Source: an uncultured Chromatiaceae bacterium
Lineage (GTDB): Bacteria; Pseudomonadota; Gammaproteobacteria; Tenderiales; Tenderiaceae
NCBI GenBank assembly: GCA_947259785.1
Contig: CAMYNQ010000004.1
Span: forward strand, 1 to 59,061
Direction: 5' to 3'
Length of the DNA stretch: 59,061 nucleotides
Part shown: in pieces, positions 35,807 through 53,737 of the stretch
How the letters are laid out: each line of letters starts with the position of its first letter
Numbering within the stretch: position 1 is the stretch's first letter
Program-made: the position numbers and the translations under genes
Notes under the pieces: model-generated
Database searches by the model: none
Told to the model about the DNA's origin: nothing
Seen by the model: the letters and a program-made list of their open reading frames with translations, nothing else

Positions 35807-37792
35807 GTGAATGGTCTGTTGTCGCGGATTAATATTCCACTGCTGCCCATATCAATACTTTTTGGCATAGGCATTATAATTTCTTTGCTGACTATTGCAG
35901 TCAGTAATATGTTTGATCAGCAGAAGAATGTCTATAACAGCCAGATTGCGTTGATAAACGATGTCATATTGCAAAAGCTTAATTCCACTGAAGAGGCCAC
36001 GCATGGTATCCGCGCGCTGTTTAATGCGTCTACCAATGTAGATGCAGATGAATTTAGAATAGTGGCGGGGGATGTTTTGTCGCGGCATGTCTTCATCAGT
36101 GACATAATTTATATGCCGTTGGTGTTGGAAAAAGATAGGCATGATTTTGAAGAGGGATCACGTGATCAGGGTTTTGTGACCTTCGCAATAAATCAGCGGC
36201 AGGGTGATAGTCTGTCACCGGCGCCGCAAAATACGCGTTATTTTCCGATTATATATTCCGAGCCGTTTACACCGTCTAGTGCGCGTAATATTGGTCTTGA
36301 CCTATTGTCGGACCCGGCACTAAAGCCATTTATGTTGCGGGCCATCGATACTGCCGGTACCAGTGTCAGTCTGCCTCAGCAAAACGGCCAAACCAAACAA
36401 TATATGGTGTTCCAAGCCCTGTATGCCGGTAAAGCGGTGCCTTCTGTGTTAAACGAACGCCAACAGACGGTCAACGGTATAGTTGCTTTAGTCGTGAATG
36501 CTGAAAAATTGCTGGATGATGTGCCGCGCCAGGAACATCTTGATTATTCTTTGCAAATACGTTCAGTGCTTGATGATGAGGGTATGGTTGAAGTTGCCAG
36601 AAGTGAAAAGGAACGGCATCTAGAAAAATATGGCGCTGTATTAAAGTCATTCAATAGTAAGCATGATGTTCAGGTCGGTAGTCAGCATTACAATATTATT
36701 TTCAGTAAATCCTTGCATTGGCAGGACGTCATTGATGCGCCAATCATAATTTCATTTGTTACTGGTCTGGCGCTGACTGCGTTGTTGATGGGGCTAAGTG
36801 TAATGGCCACCCGGCGCACCAAAGACTTGCAGAACCGCAATGATGAGGTCAGGCAGCTTGTTGAGATTAGAACAAGGGAGCTTGCCTCAGCCAATCAGCG
36901 CCTTGAGCATACCGCTGAAGAGCTCAGTTGGGAAAAGGAAGAGCAGCAGAAGCTGATTGATAAACTCCAGGAAACCCAGACCCAACTTTTACAATCGGAA
37001 AAGATGGCCTCCATTGGCCAGTTGGCCGCTGGCGTGGCGCATGAAATCAATAACCCTGTCGGTTATGTAAATTCCAACCTTGGCAGCCTGAGGCAATATA
37101 TCAAGGAGTTATTTCAGTTGTTGGATGCTTATGAAAATGTCTGTACAAAAATGGAACACTGTCCTGATGTCGCGGATAGAGCCAAGCCATTGCTCGCCCT
37201 GAAACAGGAGCTGGATTTGGCTTATATGAAGGAAGACCTGGTTGATCTAGTGGGTGAGTCTCAGGAGGGCTTGGATCGGGTCAAGAAGATCGTGCAGGAT
37301 CTTAAGGAGTTTTCACATGTGGATGAGTCCGAATGGCAGCAGGTGGATATACATCAAGGTATAGACAGCACCCTGAATATTGTTAATAACGAACTTAAAT
37401 ACAAGGCTGATATCGTTAAGGAATATGCTGACCTGCCGCTGGTGGAATGCATGCCTTCGCAAATCAATCAGGTGCTTATGAATCTGTTTGTCAATGCCGG
37501 TCATGCCATGGAAGAGCGGGGCACCGTAACAATTCGTACCGGTAGCCAGGAAGAGTGGGTATGGATAGAGATTTCCGATACCGGCAAAGGTATTGAGCCG
37601 GCTGTAATGAAACGAATATTTGAGCCTTTTTATACGACTAAAGCGATAGGCGAAGGCACCGGTCTGGGGTTATCTGTGTCTTTTGGAATTATCGAAAAAC
37701 ATGGTGGCCGCATTGAAGTTGAAAGTGAAGTGGACAAAGGAACCCAATTTCGCATCTGGCTACCTGTGCAAAGAAGAAAAGAGGTGGCTTGA
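35807..37792 (+). CDS. CHASE-domain sensor histidine kinase
   Basis: N-terminal TM, CHASE-like extracellular region, second TM, H-box MASIGQLAAGVAHEINNPVGYVNSNL, N-box LMNLFVNAGHAM, G-boxes DTGKGIEP and GEGTGLGLSVSFGIIEKHGG. Confidence 0.9.
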   Translation: MNGLLSRINIPLLPISILFGIGIIISLLTIAVSNMFDQQKNVYNSQIALINDVILQKLNSTEEATHGIRALFNASTNVDADEFRIVAGDVLSRHVFISDIIYMPLVLEKDRHDFEEGSRDQGFVTFAINQRQGDSLSPAPQNTRYFPIIYSEPFTPSSARNIGLDLLSDPALKPFMLRAIDTAGTSVSLPQQNGQTKQYMVFQALYAGKAVPSVLNERQQTVNGIVALVVNAEKLLDDVPRQEHLDYSLQIRSVLDDEGMVEVARSEKERHLEKYGAVLKSFNSKHDVQVGSQHYNIIFSKSLHWQDVIDAPIIISFVTGLALTALLMGLSVMATRRTKDLQNRNDEVRQLVEIRTRELASANQRLEHTAEELSWEKEEQQKLIDKLQETQTQLLQSEKMASIGQLAAGVAHEINNPVGYVNSNLGSLRQYIKELFQLLDAYENVCTKMEHCPDVADRAKPLLALKQELDLAYMKEDLVDLVGESQEGLDRVKKIVQDLKEFSHVDESEWQQVDIHQGIDSTLNIVNNELKYKADIVKEYADLPLVECMPSQINQVLMNLFVNAGHAMEERGTVTIRTGSQEEWVWIEISDTGKGIEPAVMKRIFEPFYTTKAIGEGTGLGLSVSFGIIEKHGGRIEVESEVDKGTQFRIWLPVQRRKEVA

Positions 37793-38085: not shown

Positions 38086-38170
38086 CAGACGTTCCGCAAC
38101 ACATTAAATACAACACCGAGGAAACGACCAGCAGAATGCGTAACCATATACTGACGTCGATTTCGGTCAT
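38039..38170 (-). pseudogene. possible 5' stub of the gene originally downstream of nhaR (43 aa: MTEIDVSIWLRILLVVSSVLYLM..)
   Basis: ATGA overlap with the nhaR stop codon; one TM-like segment; runs into the histidine-kinase remnant. Confidence 0.4.
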
Positions 38171-39114
38171 GCTTTCTTCCTACTTTTTTTCCGTTTACGC
38201 GTCTGTGACGCATCCTGAAACAACCACTCCCGCGCCGTCTCGGTAATCGCGGCCACTGCCGGATGAGATATCTTGCGCTCCACGGAAATGGCGTAGAAGT
38301 GGTCGCGCACTTCATCCGTTTGCCCAATGGCATGCACGTCATACTGTTTTTCCACTTCCGCCGCAATGGGCGTAGGTGCGATGAATACACCAACGCCGGC
38401 CCGCCCAAAGGTCTTCATCAGGGCGCTGTCGTCGAACTCACCCACGATTCGAGGATGAATATGTAGCCTGTCAAACCATTTCAGCAGTTGCCCCTGGACC
38501 ACCGTCGCTTCGCCCGGTAGCAACATGGGTTCATCACTGAGGCACTCGGGAAAATCTTTGTTCTTCTTTTTCAACTTGCGTGCCAGCTGGGAAGCTGCAA
38601 AAAATGTAATGCCGCATTCACCCAGCGAGTGATTAAAGCCGCTCACGTTGACACCTGACGGAATAGGGCTGTCAGCGATCACAAGGTCGACGCGGTGTAT
38701 GGCCAGTTGGGCCAGCAGAAAGTCGATGGTGCCCTCACGGCAGACAATACGTACCGACTCCGGCAACTGTAGCGCCGGGGCCAACAAGCGAAAGGCAATC
38801 GACTTCGGCACCACGTCCGCTACGCCCACCTTAAATACCATTGGTCTGCTGTCGGGGAGATTGCGCACCATTTGTTCCAATTCACCCCCCAATGAAAAAA
38901 TCTCGTCGGCATAACTCAAGACCAGTCGACCGGTCTCGGTCAGTTCAAGATTTCGCCCGACCCGAATAAACAGGGCTTCGCCTAGCTGCTCTTCCAGTAG
39001 GCTGAGTTGTCCGCTGACGGTCTGGGGCGTCAGGTGCAGGCGTCCGCAGGCGCGCGCGATGCTACCTTCCTTTGCCACCATCCAGAAATAATGCAGGTGT
39101 TTATAGTTAATCAT
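38167..39114 (-). CDS. nhaR: LysR-family transcriptional activator, NhaR-like
   Basis: MINYKHLHYFWMVAKEGSIARACGRLHLTPQTVSGQLSLLEEQLGEALFIRVGRNLELTETGRLVLSYADEIFSLGGEL. Start at 39114 rather than the 39186 of the ORF track. Confidence 0.9.
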   Translation of the reverse strand: MINYKHLHYFWMVAKEGSIARACGRLHLTPQTVSGQLSLLEEQLGEALFIRVGRNLELTETGRLVLSYADEIFSLGGELEQMVRNLPDSRPMVFKVGVADVVPKSIAFRLLAPALQLPESVRIVCREGTIDFLLAQLAIHRVDLVIADSPIPSGVNVSGFNHSLGECGITFFAASQLARKLKKKNKDFPECLSDEPMLLPGEATVVQGQLLKWFDRLHIHPRIVGEFDDSALMKTFGRAGVGVFIAPTPIAAEVEKQYDVHAIGQTDEVRDHFYAISVERKISHPAVAAITETAREWLFQDASQTRKRKKSRKKA

Positions 39115-39212
39115 TGCTGTGCACTCACTTCGTATAATACGAATAGTGTAGACAGAATATTCGACTTTTACATAACTTAAAATCACTTTATCCTAGTCTG
39201 CGATCGTCACCA
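38993..39212. repeat. direct repeat copy A: 5' end of nhaR plus upstream control region
   Basis: Aligned by eye to 40083..40302 (e.g. atgctaccttcctttgccaccatccagaaataatgcag, cacttcgtataatacgaata, attcgactttt, aaatcacttta.cctagtctg). Confidence 0.85.
39129..39143. promoter_or_regulatory. palindrome TTCGTAT-A-ATACGAA, candidate NhaR/LysR-type binding site (copy A)
   Basis: Perfect 7-bp inverted repeat containing a T-N11-A core, between divergent nhaR and the 39324 gene; same sequence at 40221. Confidence 0.6.
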
Positions 39213-39323
39213 GAAACGAAGCACCAAAGGCAACAGCGCTGCTGAGACTGGCTCAGTTTTTTGTTTGGGGGAAATCGTCTGCACAGCGCCCCTAACGATA
39301 GTATTTACCGCGAGACAACAGAT

Positions 39324-39866
39324 ATGCATGACCAAAAGAACCCCAGTGAACTCACAGCGCAGGACTTTGGGCTTGTAAAATTTCTGCTGGCATCAGCGAC
39401 CTTCTTCTTTATCGGCACAGTCCATGGCGTGCTGCAAATACAACCACCAATACGTGCCTGGCTAGACAGTATTGGCAGCCCTTATGGCGGTCCGGGGCAC
39501 ATGATTGACCCATTGGCCCATGCCCATATCAATGTCGTGGGAGGGGTGGTGTTGTTGTGTATGGCGGTGACGTATTACTTGCTGCCCAGACTTTCCGGTC
39601 TAGCCCTATTTTCGCAGCGATTGGTCAACCACACATTCTGGTGGACCACCCTGGGCATATGCGGTTTCTATAGTACGTTGATGATATTCGGAGTGATCGA
39701 GGGCAATCTGTTGTTACAAGGCAAGCTCGAGGAAATGACAGAGGTTCACCGTATCTACACTCCGATTATTGCGGTGATCTCTACTGTGATGGGTATAGGG
39801 TTCTGGGTGTATTTCACCAATGTACTTTTCACAGCTAAGGCAATTTATAAAGCCAGGCGGACATGA
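39324..39866 (+). CDS. orphan haem-copper oxidase subunit I-like (cbb3/NorB-like N-terminal) membrane protein
   Basis: GTVHGVLQIQP..DPLAHAHINVVGGVVLLCMAVTYYLLPRLSG; about four TM segments; about 180 aa, far shorter than a complete subunit I. Confidence 0.7.
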   Translation: MHDQKNPSELTAQDFGLVKFLLASATFFFIGTVHGVLQIQPPIRAWLDSIGSPYGGPGHMIDPLAHAHINVVGGVVLLCMAVTYYLLPRLSGLALFSQRLVNHTFWWTTLGICGFYSTLMIFGVIEGNLLLQGKLEEMTEVHRIYTPIIAVISTVMGIGFWVYFTNVLFTAKAIYKARRT

Positions 39867-49581: not shown

Positions 49582-49819
49582 TTGGCTGTTCAATCTTGGT
49601 AAAATCTAGCTATACTCGTGCGAATCAGTCAGACATAACAAACAATTAATCGACAAGATTTGTTGCATATTGAAGCTTAGATATGCCTGCTAGATATTGA
49701 TTGCGTTGTGCATTGTTTTAAGAACATGTGGGTGTTGCATGATTGCGAAGCTCCCTCAAGGATGAATCTGTATCACATCAACTACTGCGGTGCTAAGCCG
49801 GGGCCAGTCAGGGGGAAAA

Positions 49820-51724
49820 ATGCAAAAATTTACCAATGGTGTTTTGAAACTAAGTCGCTTGACCTTGTTAACTACTATCACCGTCTCGGGTGTCAGTGGT
49901 TGTGGCGGCAAACAAGTTGCCATCAAACCTGTTGAACGAAATGTGGTTGCCGTGGCGATGGAGCAGCAAGCCGTTGTAGCTGAGTCGGTTGCTGCAGAGT
50001 CTGAGTCTTATCTAGTTGATCCTTCCCCCGAGCGATTGGTTTTGGCGGCCCGGTATGGCCAGTCCAGGGGGGTTAAGTATTTTCTTGAGGGGGGCATGGC
50101 TGTCGATGTCAAGGACGCCTACGGTAATACTGCCCTGATCGCGGCCGCCAGTAACGGTCAAGTTGAGATGGTGGAGCTGTTATTGGCGCGTGGTGCTGAG
50201 ATCAATGCAAGCAATAAAGAAGAGTTTACTGCTCTGATGGGGGCGGCGGTTAAAGGCCATTATGAGCTGGCCCATACTCTGATTGGCTCGGGTGCCGAGG
50301 TCAACGCCATGAATAATGATGCCGAAACGGCATTGTCCATGGCAGTGAAATATGGTCATTACAAAGCGGCGAAGGTTTTGTTGAAGGGGGGTGCCAACCC
50401 TAACCTGTCTAATTCGCTGCCCGCAAATGTCAGCAATAGTGGCTATACGCCATTGATGTATACCGCGACGTCGGGCGTCACCCGGCAGTCGGTCGACTGG
50501 GCCGCCATGGCGCAATTGTTGATTGCCAATGGTGCCAATCCCAATCTCAGTAGTCGTCATGGTGATGCTGCGCTGAATCTTGCCCGTAGCAGAAATAATG
50601 CTGAGGTGGTTGCGGTGCTTAAAAAGGCTGGCGCCAAGGATGACAAAGTTTATGCCGTACTGAACTTGGACGAGACCCTGCTTAAGGCTGCCAGGCTGGG
50701 TGATTACATCAAGGTAAAACAGGTGTTAGCCAATGGTGCCAATCCTGATTTTTCGGACAAGAATGGTGTGACACCACTGTTAGCAGCGGCCCACCGAGGC
50801 AGCTCTGCAACGTTGAGGATGCTGCTGGCAGCTAATGTTGAAGTGAATTTTGTGCCGTCTGGTTTGCGTCAGTATGCCCTATCGAAATCTCACGCGCCGC
50901 TTAATGAACGAGAGTTAATGGAAGCTGCTTCGCGTGGTGAAACGGCTTTGAATGCGGCAGTACGCCAGGGCCATATCGAGGAGGCCTATTTCCTGCTTAG
51001 CAACGGTGCCAACATCGGTCTGGCCAATCGTCATGGTGAAACGCCACTGTTTGTGGCTGTGGCGGCGGGTAATCTGGGTATGGTCAAGATGCTGCTTGAG
51101 CGCGGTGCCAACCCAAATTCTGTTGAGCAGGATAATCGGCGTAACCGCTTGGCTCTGGCAAAACATGCGATGGGTAAAAATAGCGTTCTAATTACGGCTG
51201 TGCAGAAGGGGTATTTGGATGTGAGCAAGTTATTGGTCGAGGCCGGTGCAGATGTCGATTACCGTGGTTTTATGGGTAAGACAGCTGTCTATGTTGCGGT
51301 TGAGAATGGTCGTCGTAAGCAATTGGGTTATTTGCTAGAAAAAAAAGCCAATCTGAATATTAGCAGTCGGGCTGGGATTAGCCCGTTGATGGAGGCGGCT
51401 AAACTTGGTAATCGTCACCTGGTGGCTGACCTGCTTGGCAGTGCGGCCAGCGTAAATGCGATTGAGCGGCCTGAGCTAGGCTATGCCCGTGAAACACAGG
51501 GAGGTAGTAGCAGTGGTATGACGGCCTTGATGTTTGCGGCTCGTGGTGGCCACGATGATGTGGTCGATCAGTTGCTCCAGGCTGGGGCAGAGATCAATAT
51601 TCATAATGTCAATGGTGAAAATGCACGAGCGATTGCCAGTGCGGCTGGTTATGATGAGATTGTTGAAATGTTGTCGTCTGATGCCCGTCAGAATACCGTT
51701 ACCTTGTCTACGATTGATAGATAA
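49820..51724 (+). CDS. ankyrin-repeat lipoprotein
   Basis: MQKFTNGVLKLSRLTLLTTITVSGVSGCGG lipoprotein-like leader, then many ankyrin units (e.g. YGNTALIAAASNGQVEMVELLLARGAEINASNKEEFTALMGAAVKGHYELAHTLIGSGAEVNAMN). Confidence 0.9.
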   Translation: MQKFTNGVLKLSRLTLLTTITVSGVSGCGGKQVAIKPVERNVVAVAMEQQAVVAESVAAESESYLVDPSPERLVLAARYGQSRGVKYFLEGGMAVDVKDAYGNTALIAAASNGQVEMVELLLARGAEINASNKEEFTALMGAAVKGHYELAHTLIGSGAEVNAMNNDAETALSMAVKYGHYKAAKVLLKGGANPNLSNSLPANVSNSGYTPLMYTATSGVTRQSVDWAAMAQLLIANGANPNLSSRHGDAALNLARSRNNAEVVAVLKKAGAKDDKVYAVLNLDETLLKAARLGDYIKVKQVLANGANPDFSDKNGVTPLLAAAHRGSSATLRMLLAANVEVNFVPSGLRQYALSKSHAPLNERELMEAASRGETALNAAVRQGHIEEAYFLLSNGANIGLANRHGETPLFVAVAAGNLGMVKMLLERGANPNSVEQDNRRNRLALAKHAMGKNSVLITAVQKGYLDVSKLLVEAGADVDYRGFMGKTAVYVAVENGRRKQLGYLLEKKANLNISSRAGISPLMEAAKLGNRHLVADLLGSAASVNAIERPELGYARETQGGSSSGMTALMFAARGGHDDVVDQLLQAGAEINIHNVNGENARAIASAAGYDEIVEMLSSDARQNTVTLSTIDR

Positions 51725-51855: not shown

Positions 51856-52311
51856 ATGATAAAAAACCTACAGCGTTTCTTTGACCAGAAAATTCAATCT
51901 ATCAGTGGTGGCCAGACAGCAATTTTGCCTGAACGTGCCTTGCAGCTTGCCACGGCCTCTTTGTTGATAGAGGTTTCTCGTGCCGATTTTCATATTGATG
52001 CAAAAGAGCAGCGGACAATTGCCGATGCAATTCAAGCATTTTTTTCGCTTTCTGCCGCAGAAACTCGAGAGATTATTGAGTTGGCGGAGAGTGAAGTTGA
52101 CGATGTCACCTGTTTGTTCGAGTTTACTCGTCTGGTGAATGAAAACTTTGATTACTCACAAAAACTCAAGATTGTTGAAATGATGTGGGCTGTCTCTTAT
52201 GCCGACCTGGATAAAGATAAATATGAAGAACACTTGATAAGAAAGGTGAGTGATTTGCTGTATGTGTCGCACTCCGATTTTGTCCGTCTGCGCCATTCAA
52301 CTGAGCCTTAA
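51856..52311 (+). CDS. TerB-family protein
   Basis: LATASLLIEVSRADFHIDAKEQRTIADAIQAFF; MMWAVSYADLDKDKYEEHLIRKVSDLL. Confidence 0.85.
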   Translation: MIKNLQRFFDQKIQSISGGQTAILPERALQLATASLLIEVSRADFHIDAKEQRTIADAIQAFFSLSAAETREIIELAESEVDDVTCLFEFTRLVNENFDYSQKLKIVEMMWAVSYADLDKDKYEEHLIRKVSDLLYVSHSDFVRLRHSTEP

Positions 52312-52483
52312 TAGCTGAGTAATTTACTAGGTAATATTTTTTTCTTTCCAGCCGCTAGTTCTGTGACTATCTTAATTCCTGACTATTATTATTGGATATA
52401 AAGTGTATTTACAGTACATTTTTAAGTGGTTAGTATTTGAGCGGGGATAGATTGAGAATTTTTACAGTGACTAGGAGAAAATA

Positions 52484-53680
52484 ATGTTTGGATTTCTAAA
52501 AAGCTTGTTTGGTGGGGCCAAACCAGCGCCTTTGTTTGAGCGTATCGGTGGTGAAGCGGCTGTTAATGCTGCGGTTGATGTTTTTTATCGCAAGGTGCTG
52601 GCGGATGATCGTATCAACCAGTTTTTTGAAGGTGTGGATATGGACAAGCAGTCGGCCAAGCAAAAAGCTTTCTTGACTATGGCCCTGGGTGGTCCAACCA
52701 ACTACACGGGCAAGGACATGCGTCTGGGCCATGCCCACCTGGTTGAGAAAGGGTTGAACGGCTCGCATTTTGATGCTGTCATGGAAAACCTGGCTGCTAC
52801 GTTGACCGAACTGGGCGTGCCCGCTGATCTGATCGGCGAAGCAGCTGCGATTGCCGAAAGCACTCGCGCTGATGTGTTGGCAGGTTATACCGCAGAAGAA
52901 AAGGCGGCCATGGGTGGAGACAAGAGCCTGTATGAGCGTATCGGTGGTGATGCGGCGGTCAACGCTGCCGTAGATGTTTTCTACCGCAAGGTGCTGGCAG
53001 ATGATCGCATTAATATGTTCTTTGAAGGTGTGGACATGGGCAAGCAGTCTGCCAAGCAAAAGGCCTTCCTGACCATGGCCCTGGGTGGCCCAAGCAATTA
53101 TACCGGCAGGGACATGCGCCTGGGCCATGCCCACTTGGTGGAAAAGGGGCTGAATGGCTCGCATTTTGATGCTGTCATGGAAAACCTGGCTGCTACGCTG
53201 ACCGAACTGGGCGTGCCCGCTGATCTGATTGGCGAAGCGGCTGCGATTGCCGAAAGTACTCGCGCCGACGTGCTGGCAGGATATACCGATGAAGAGAAGG
53301 CGACCATCCCAGGTAATCAAAGTCTTTATGAACGTATCGGTGGTGATGCGGCGGTCAATGCGGCGGTTGATGTATTCTATCGCAAGGTGCTGGCGGATGA
53401 TCGCATCAACATGTTCTTTGAAGGTGTGGATATGGACAAGCAGTCGGCCAAGCAAAAGGCCTTCCTGACTATGGCCCTGGGTGGCCCAAGCAACTACAGC
53501 GGCAAAGACATGCGTGAAGGACATGCCCATCTGGTGGCTAAAGGTTTGAACGACTCGCATTTTGACGCGGTGATGGAAAACCTGGGAGCCACGCTGACTG
53601 AGCTGGGTGTGCCTGGAGATCTGATCGCCGAAGCGGCTGCGATTGCTGAAAGCACACGTAACGATGTGCTGGGTAAATAA
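52484..53680 (+). CDS. triple-domain group 1 truncated haemoglobin
   Basis: Three tandem copies of L(F/Y)ERIGGxAAVNAAVDVFYRKVLADDRIN.FFEGVDM.KQSAKQKAFLTMALGGP.NY.G.DMR.GHAHLV.KGLN.SHFDAVMENL.ATLTELGVP.DLI.EAAAIAESTR.DVL. Confidence 0.95.
   Translation: MFGFLKSLFGGAKPAPLFERIGGEAAVNAAVDVFYRKVLADDRINQFFEGVDMDKQSAKQKAFLTMALGGPTNYTGKDMRLGHAHLVEKGLNGSHFDAVMENLAATLTELGVPADLIGEAAAIAESTRADVLAGYTAEEKAAMGGDKSLYERIGGDAAVNAAVDVFYRKVLADDRINMFFEGVDMGKQSAKQKAFLTMALGGPSNYTGRDMRLGHAHLVEKGLNGSHFDAVMENLAATLTELGVPADLIGEAAAIAESTRADVLAGYTDEEKATIPGNQSLYERIGGDAAVNAAVDVFYRKVLADDRINMFFEGVDMDKQSAKQKAFLTMALGGPSNYSGKDMREGHAHLVAKGLNDSHFDAVMENLGATLTELGVPGDLIAEAAAIAESTRNDVLGK
52532..53680 (+). repeat. in-frame tandem repeat, 396-bp period, units starting at 52532, 52928, 53324 (third lacks the linker)
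   Basis: High nucleotide similarity between units, constant 132-aa spacing. Confidence 0.95.
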
Positions 53681-53702: not shown

Positions 53703-53737
53703 AAAAGGCGCTGCCTGGTAACGGGTAGCGCCTTTTT
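53703..53737 (+). terminator. Rho-independent terminator after the globin gene
   Basis: aaaaggcgctgcc-tggtaacgg-gtagcgccttttt; A/T tracts on both sides suggest it may act bidirectionally. Confidence 0.8.

Follow-up and report, generated by a model that had tools for sequence, protein, structure and literature searches.

Tandem truncated haemoglobins (TrHbs) constitute a described class of proteins (Hade et al., 2017, IUBMB Life 69:479, as cited in PMC7082302), and the citing paper assigns four consecutive 2/2 domains to Chlamydomonas THB5. It also identifies Lys E10 as the residue that completes haem coordination as sixth ligand in THB1, THB2, and THB4; THB10 and THB11 possess this lysine as well, yet in the ferrous state they are pentacoordinate (PMC7082302). 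For the microaerophilic iron oxidisers Sideroxydans ES-1 and Mariprofundus PV-1, small genomes with several trHbN copies each have been described (three trHbN genes in Mariprofundus ferrooxydans PV-1), and in iron oxidisers trHbN has been proposed to associate with the terminal oxidase, detoxify NO, or store O2 (PMC3770913). The main text of the metatranscriptome study of Candidatus Tenderia electrophaga does not mention globins (PMC5371394). Here, we describe a member of the tandem class encoded in a 59,061-nucleotide stretch of DNA (hereafter, the window), which belongs to a draft genome (G000; 3.36 Mb in 296 contigs) from the genus of Candidatus Tenderia, which lives on electricity and iron.

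The gene (Table 1) harbours one repeat family with three copies spaced by 396 + 396 nt within a single 398-aa ORF, in line with the three in-frame units of exact 132-aa period proposed by an earlier sequence-only reading. The profile search suggested at that time, with three truncated-globin matches and haem ligands expected, returned PF01152 (Bac_globin) in three separate stretches of the protein (E = 2.7e-56, 189 bits versus a cut-off of 21) with the ligands kept, and the units scored singly reached 65–67 bits each. Motifs RIGG, DVFY, FFEG, ALGGP, and MR(L/E)GHAHL, the linker GYT(A/D)EEKA, and the placement of the 16-aa leader before unit 1 alone were found as initially noted, and the stem with its T tail downstream of the gene supports the presence of its own terminator. 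An antisense ORF of 354 aa (52496–53560), similar to one in L010, was regarded as a side effect of the repeats in the coding strand, and weak Pfam matches to Protoglobin and TrmE_N, as well as the NCBIfam match to MSP1, were taken as chance or superfamily overlap.

Table 1. Features of the tandem globin locus, with positions counted along the window
Feature	Position	Strand	Details
TerB-family gene (PF05099)	51856..52311	+	Pfam; syntenic neighbour in the window's family of genomes only
Conserved upstream region	52374..52419	+	AATTCCTGACTATTATTATTGGATATAAAGTGTATTTACAGTACAT; eight upstream regions aligned
Three-unit group 1 truncated haemoglobin gene	52484..53680	+	ATG start, 398 aa; ORF list, repeats, Pfam
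16-aa leader	52484..52531	+	MFGFLKSLFGGAKPAP; conserved pattern M[FL]xxLxK(L/M)FGG; amphipathic helix, probably in contact with the membrane
Unit 1 (N-type) with linker	52532..52927	+	Tyr35 B10, Gln56 E7, Lys59 E10, Gln60 E11, His83 F8
Unit 2 (N-type, apparent duplicate of unit 1 lineage) with linker	52928..53323	+	Tyr167, Gln188, Lys191, Gln192, His215
Unit 3 (C-type, apparent orthologue of second unit in two-unit relatives)	53324..53677	+	Tyr299, Gln320, Lys323, Gln324, His347
Intrinsic terminator	53703..53736	+	Strong; 15-pair stem, then T tail TCGTTTTTAT

The best PDB relatives of the window protein all fall in group 1 (Synechocystis cyanoglobin, 1.2e-36; Tetrahymena, 4.9e-35; C. eugametos, 1.6e-29; THB1, 4.8e-29), structures of this group matching at 1e-36 to 1e-20, compared with 7e-9 or weaker for group 2 (e.g. 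Geobacillus). Alignment and residue tally placed the proximal His F8, Phe CD1, Tyr B10, and the Gly-Gly motifs in each window unit, and no variation at Tyr B10, Gln E7, Lys E10, Gln E11, or His F8 occurred among the 60 units tabulated from multi-unit proteins or the 53 single-unit relatives; these positions were named by PDB alignment and by the published Synechocystis numbering. The predicted model (mean pLDDT 75) adopts the 2-on-2 globin fold, and Foldseek gave it target TM values of 0.81–0.87 to the same group 1 proteins for the single best-matching unit; the inter-domain arrangement in the AlphaFold model is unreliable (pTM 0.38) and was not used. As judged by Pfam, PDB matches, and the residue tally, the window protein is a chain of three group 1 (TrHbN-type) units, and both the group 1 identity and every haem-pocket residue predicted beforehand are thereby upheld. 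The pocket residues point to three O2-binding haems, and the product is probably a three-haem protein. Hexacoordination via Lys E10 is possible in the window units by analogy with the algal proteins; it is not predicted, since THB10 and THB11 carry this residue and yet are pentacoordinate in the ferrous form.

Within the established class of tandem TrHbs, to which the window protein belongs, it shares with the multidomain representatives of Hade et al. (2017; via PMC7082302) the location of truncated globin units in one polypeptide and differs by being all group 1, by Lys E10, and by an N-N-C order of units behind an amphipathic leader, where N and C denote counterparts of the first and second units of two-unit relatives. 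With Chlamydomonas THBs, it has in common tandem 2/2 units, Lys E10, and the group 1 fold; these proteins belong to a eukaryotic alga, three of them (THB1, THB2, and THB4) consist of a single domain, and such a leader is not recorded in the excerpted part of PMC7082302. Synechocystis cyanoglobin, M. tuberculosis HbN, and the Tetrahymena TrHb are similar in fold, Tyr B10, and His F8, the first also in Gln E7 and Gln E11 by PDB alignment, but single-domain TrHbN/GlbN proteins have one unit, and E10 of the Synechocystis protein is His instead of Lys. Like the ES-1 and PV-1 genomes, that of the window encodes more than one TrHbN; in those iron oxidisers they are described as separate genes, tandem fusion not being mentioned in the excerpted part of PMC3770913. 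Of the opinion that a three-domain form is unusual, it stands that the N-N-C protein is a fresh member, but the class itself has been described (Hade et al., 2017; THB5), and the bacterial relatives found comprise about 25 proteins with two units and another 4 with three.

The similarity of units is high at the protein level (95% for units 1/2, 89% for 1/3, and 91% for 2/3 over 117 aa) and lower in DNA (87%, 84%, and 84%, respectively), with synonymous divergence dS of 0.65–0.87 and the lowest value, 0.65, for units 1/2. Their designation as near-identical is accordingly to be corrected to highly similar, the divergence at synonymous sites being large. Changes are overwhelmingly synonymous (dN/dS of ~0.04 for units 1/2 and of ~0.1 and ~0.06 for the other two pairs), indicating that every unit is under purifying selection and kept functional.

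Gene order rnhA-dnaQ-ankyrin-TerB-globin-gltX-glnS is conserved in the genus and family, being complete or partial depending on contig ends, and globins L021 and L095 (G002), identical from the first unit onward, tie the genus to a Candidatus Tenderia sp. MAG. The syntenic locus encodes two units in G001, G002, G003, G004, G005, and G010 and three units in G000 and G007; the globin of G008 also has three units, in a 3.6-kb contig without flanking genes. Since G005 is near-closed (2 contigs), the two-unit form of its syntenic orthologue can be regarded as well assembled. The protein tree, built from 86 units, places the first two window units with unit 1 of two-unit orthologues at moderate support (SH-aLRT 87–92), unit 3 being nearest to their unit 2. 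The DNA tree joins the window units with those of the two-unit orthologue L012 (96/95), which points to some homogenisation between units, and at the DNA level a forced grouping of the three window units was not rejected (p-AU 0.42). The simplest history suggested by these groupings is an older N-C pair that gained a second N copy in the window lineage to become N-N-C, partial homogenisation included. Its date is uncertain owing to gene conversion, which blocks clean dating, but a very recent duplication is rejected by the dS of 0.65 between units 1 and 2; values between the window and its nearest relatives are 0.8–1.5 for globin units, rnhA, dnaQ, and TerB, that is, above 0.65. The recent internal amplification supposed by the sequence-only reading is thus retained in that the extra N-type unit is lineage-specific, but the N-C form is common at this locus genus-wide, and the extra unit is not a very recent one. 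Third units of L007, L009, and L010 look like separate gains. The window genome also encodes a soluble single-unit TrHbN paralogue (L002; G000:C164:605-979) of 125 aa, which starts with MSDS and has no leader.

What the earlier reading missed is how informative the leader is: all multi-unit relatives with a readable start have one, and nearly all single-unit relatives lack it. As counted from the listed leaders, an amphipathic or transmembrane (TM) leader occurs in 28 of 28 multi-unit proteins with a readable start versus 3 of 56 single-unit relatives, a contrast to be read as a pattern rather than a formal test because the sequences are related by descent. The three exceptions are L037, L040, and L064; other single-unit proteins start with MS.S or similar. 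Short amphipathic leaders of multi-unit proteins are of the types MFGFLKSLFGG, MFSAIARFFSGG, and MFKALFRLFTGG, and a clear TM helix takes their place in L026, L028, L031, and L034. The helical moment of the window leader is 0.43 over 9 residues, weakly above expectation as 13% of shuffles reach it; in several sister clades the moment is reached by ≤0.6% of shuffles. Such a leader would probably anchor the protein at the inner membrane, on its cytoplasmic side. A parallel came from a phylum-wide search in family f208, which belongs to another class, suspected, in view of the three trHbN genes of PV-1, to be Zetaproteobacteria: adjacent TrHbN genes encode one soluble protein and one with an N-terminal TM helix (e.g. 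L135, L136, L138, and L140–L143), and in L135 and L136 it is again the anchored paralogue, beside the soluble single-unit gene, that consists of two fused units. The tandem globins of f208 are apparently a separate set from the window relatives.

The conserved region upstream of the gene, shared by eight related loci, is a probable promoter or operator. Its left part corresponds in the alignment to an IscR type-1-like dyad, the right half of which is lost in the window copy, and its right part is a conserved block ATTTACAGTACAT. Dyad scoring revealed an intact GACT-N5-AGTC dyad resembling the IscR type-1 consensus upstream of the globin in L011, L098, and L101, and comparable sites are found at the iscR promoters in G000, G001, and G005. 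The whole G005 genome contains three strict IscR-type sites, which is about the number expected by chance; one of them is located just upstream of a gene that we take to be mrp/apbC-like. Given this chance-like number and the half-lost dyad of the window, IscR control may be considered a lead for the relatives and is putative at most in the window itself. A perfect IscR-like site at 35888 of the window lies inside a coding ORF and was treated as chance.

Among the neighbours, the ankyrin-repeat protein (49790–51724, 644 aa) has a possible lipoprotein-like start and is syntenic with the tandem globin across the family; it was not found at the globin locus of L012. Operonic function was not deduced from neighbours because the synteny of TerB and ankyrin genes is limited to the family and no common theme exists elsewhere: outside the window's family the context varies, and globin neighbourhoods there did not point to NO or oxidase genes. 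Neighbours in other families, as recognised by N-termini, are presumably thiC, hemE, dtd, or nadB. Certain arrangements at these loci were seen by eye or by profile. In L014 (5088–8810) and L017 (4179–7890), the two-unit globin is followed by a nadB-like gene, a 2Fe-2S ferredoxin-like gene, and a third conserved gene, which are possible reductase partners; in L009 (349–1410), a hemE-like gene of haem biosynthesis directly precedes the three-unit globin; and in L028 (3320–3739, − strand) and L034 (3318–3770, − strand), a second, more distant truncated-globin gene (35–40 bits to the unit model) is divergent beside the TM-anchored tandem TrHbN. Elsewhere in the window, a short (~200 aa) COX1-like protein is encoded at 39261–39866 (+ strand; PF00115 match at 39381–39722) next to a divergent LysR-like ORF (38167–39186, − strand), and short COX1-like matches occur also in contigs C65, C125, and C210 of G000.

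Taken together, the pocket residues and the leader favour O2/NO handling near the membrane, and we lean, slightly beyond even confidence, to the view that the window protein is a membrane-tethered three-haem TrHbN with units multiplied for more haem per anchor along the path from N-C to N-N-C. Each unit would bind one haem b through His F8, the distal network of Tyr B10, Gln E7, and Gln E11 would stabilise bound O2, and Lys E10 may take the sixth coordination site from within the protein as long as no O2 is bound. The amphipathic leader would hold the protein at the cytoplasmic face of the inner membrane, where it may perform NO dioxygenation and/or O2 buffering near the respiratory chain, and more units on one anchor would provide greater haem capacity per membrane site. 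In the ancestor, the leader-bearing paralogue would have become N-C with the soluble single-unit paralogue staying in the genome; a duplication of N specific to the window lineage would have given N-N-C, with partial homogenisation between units. The anchored and fused paralogue of f208 and the IscR-type dyad of relatives speak for this view. Against it count the weak amphipathicity of the window leader, the half-lost dyad of the window, the lack of NO or oxidase genes around the globins of other families, the unreliable domain placement in the model, and the moderate tree support for the N/C grouping, together with the unrejected DNA-level grouping of the three window units.

Other explanations have to be weighed against this one. 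Fragmentation of the G000 assembly (296 contigs) might suggest that the array is an artefact and the real number of units is below three; the longest exact inter-unit matches, however, extend over 42, 41, and 26 nt for the three unit pairs, and three-unit proteins are encoded in four further MAG loci, i.e., in the orthologues L007 (G007) and L008 (G008) and in the relatives L009 and L010, so that collapse or expansion of repeats by assembly was rejected and such an error is barely credible. Multiplication of units could also mean plain dosage or an O2 store in a microaerophile, with no membrane role and an incidental leader, as the nearly identical haem pockets of all units and strong purifying selection would permit. 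A globin at ordinary expression level, however, gives little O2 storage, the leader is kept in every multi-unit protein and takes the form of a TM helix in some, and the soluble single-unit paralogue of the same genome never became multi-unit. O2 storage has already been proposed for trHbN-rich iron oxidisers (PMC3770913), and we consider this explanation unlikely but deserving attention.

The invariance of Lys E10, which ligates iron in THB1, THB2, and THB4 (PMC7082302), and the presence in the genus of an electroautotroph with many haem proteins (PMC5371394) would be compatible with a redox protein, in which the three haems, bis-ligated by His F8 and Lys E10, would serve at the membrane for electron transfer or nitrite reduction instead of binding O2. 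Retention of Tyr B10, Gln E7, and Gln E11, as in O2-binding homologues, together with the occurrence of Lys E10 in the ferrous-pentacoordinate THB10 and THB11, makes this improbable. A cooperative O2 carrier is conceivable as far as three covalently linked globin units are present, but no inter-unit interface is predicted (pTM 0.38), and linker length differs among relatives, unlike what a tight allosteric interface would imply; we assess it as very improbable.

The strict link between a membrane-type leader and the multiplication of units suggests a concrete reason why globins of the tandem truncated kind may exist. That iron-oxidiser-like bacteria gained units more than once on paralogues with a leader may be new and is offered as a hypothesis rather than a result. 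In its widest form, which is tentative and less likely than not, microaerophilic iron-oxidising and electroautotrophic Pseudomonadota would on several occasions have built membrane-tethered rods of poly-haem globin by appending TrHbN units to a paralogue with a leader, guarding or feeding the respiratory chain at the cytoplasmic membrane face, that is, a recurrent unnamed O2/NO device with IscR-type Fe-S control in some lineages. The occurrence of two or three units at one locus in close genomes provides natural orthologues for testing haem load, O2/NO chemistry, and membrane targeting, and the finding in the window connects tandem truncated globins with iron-oxidising and cathode-living bacteria.
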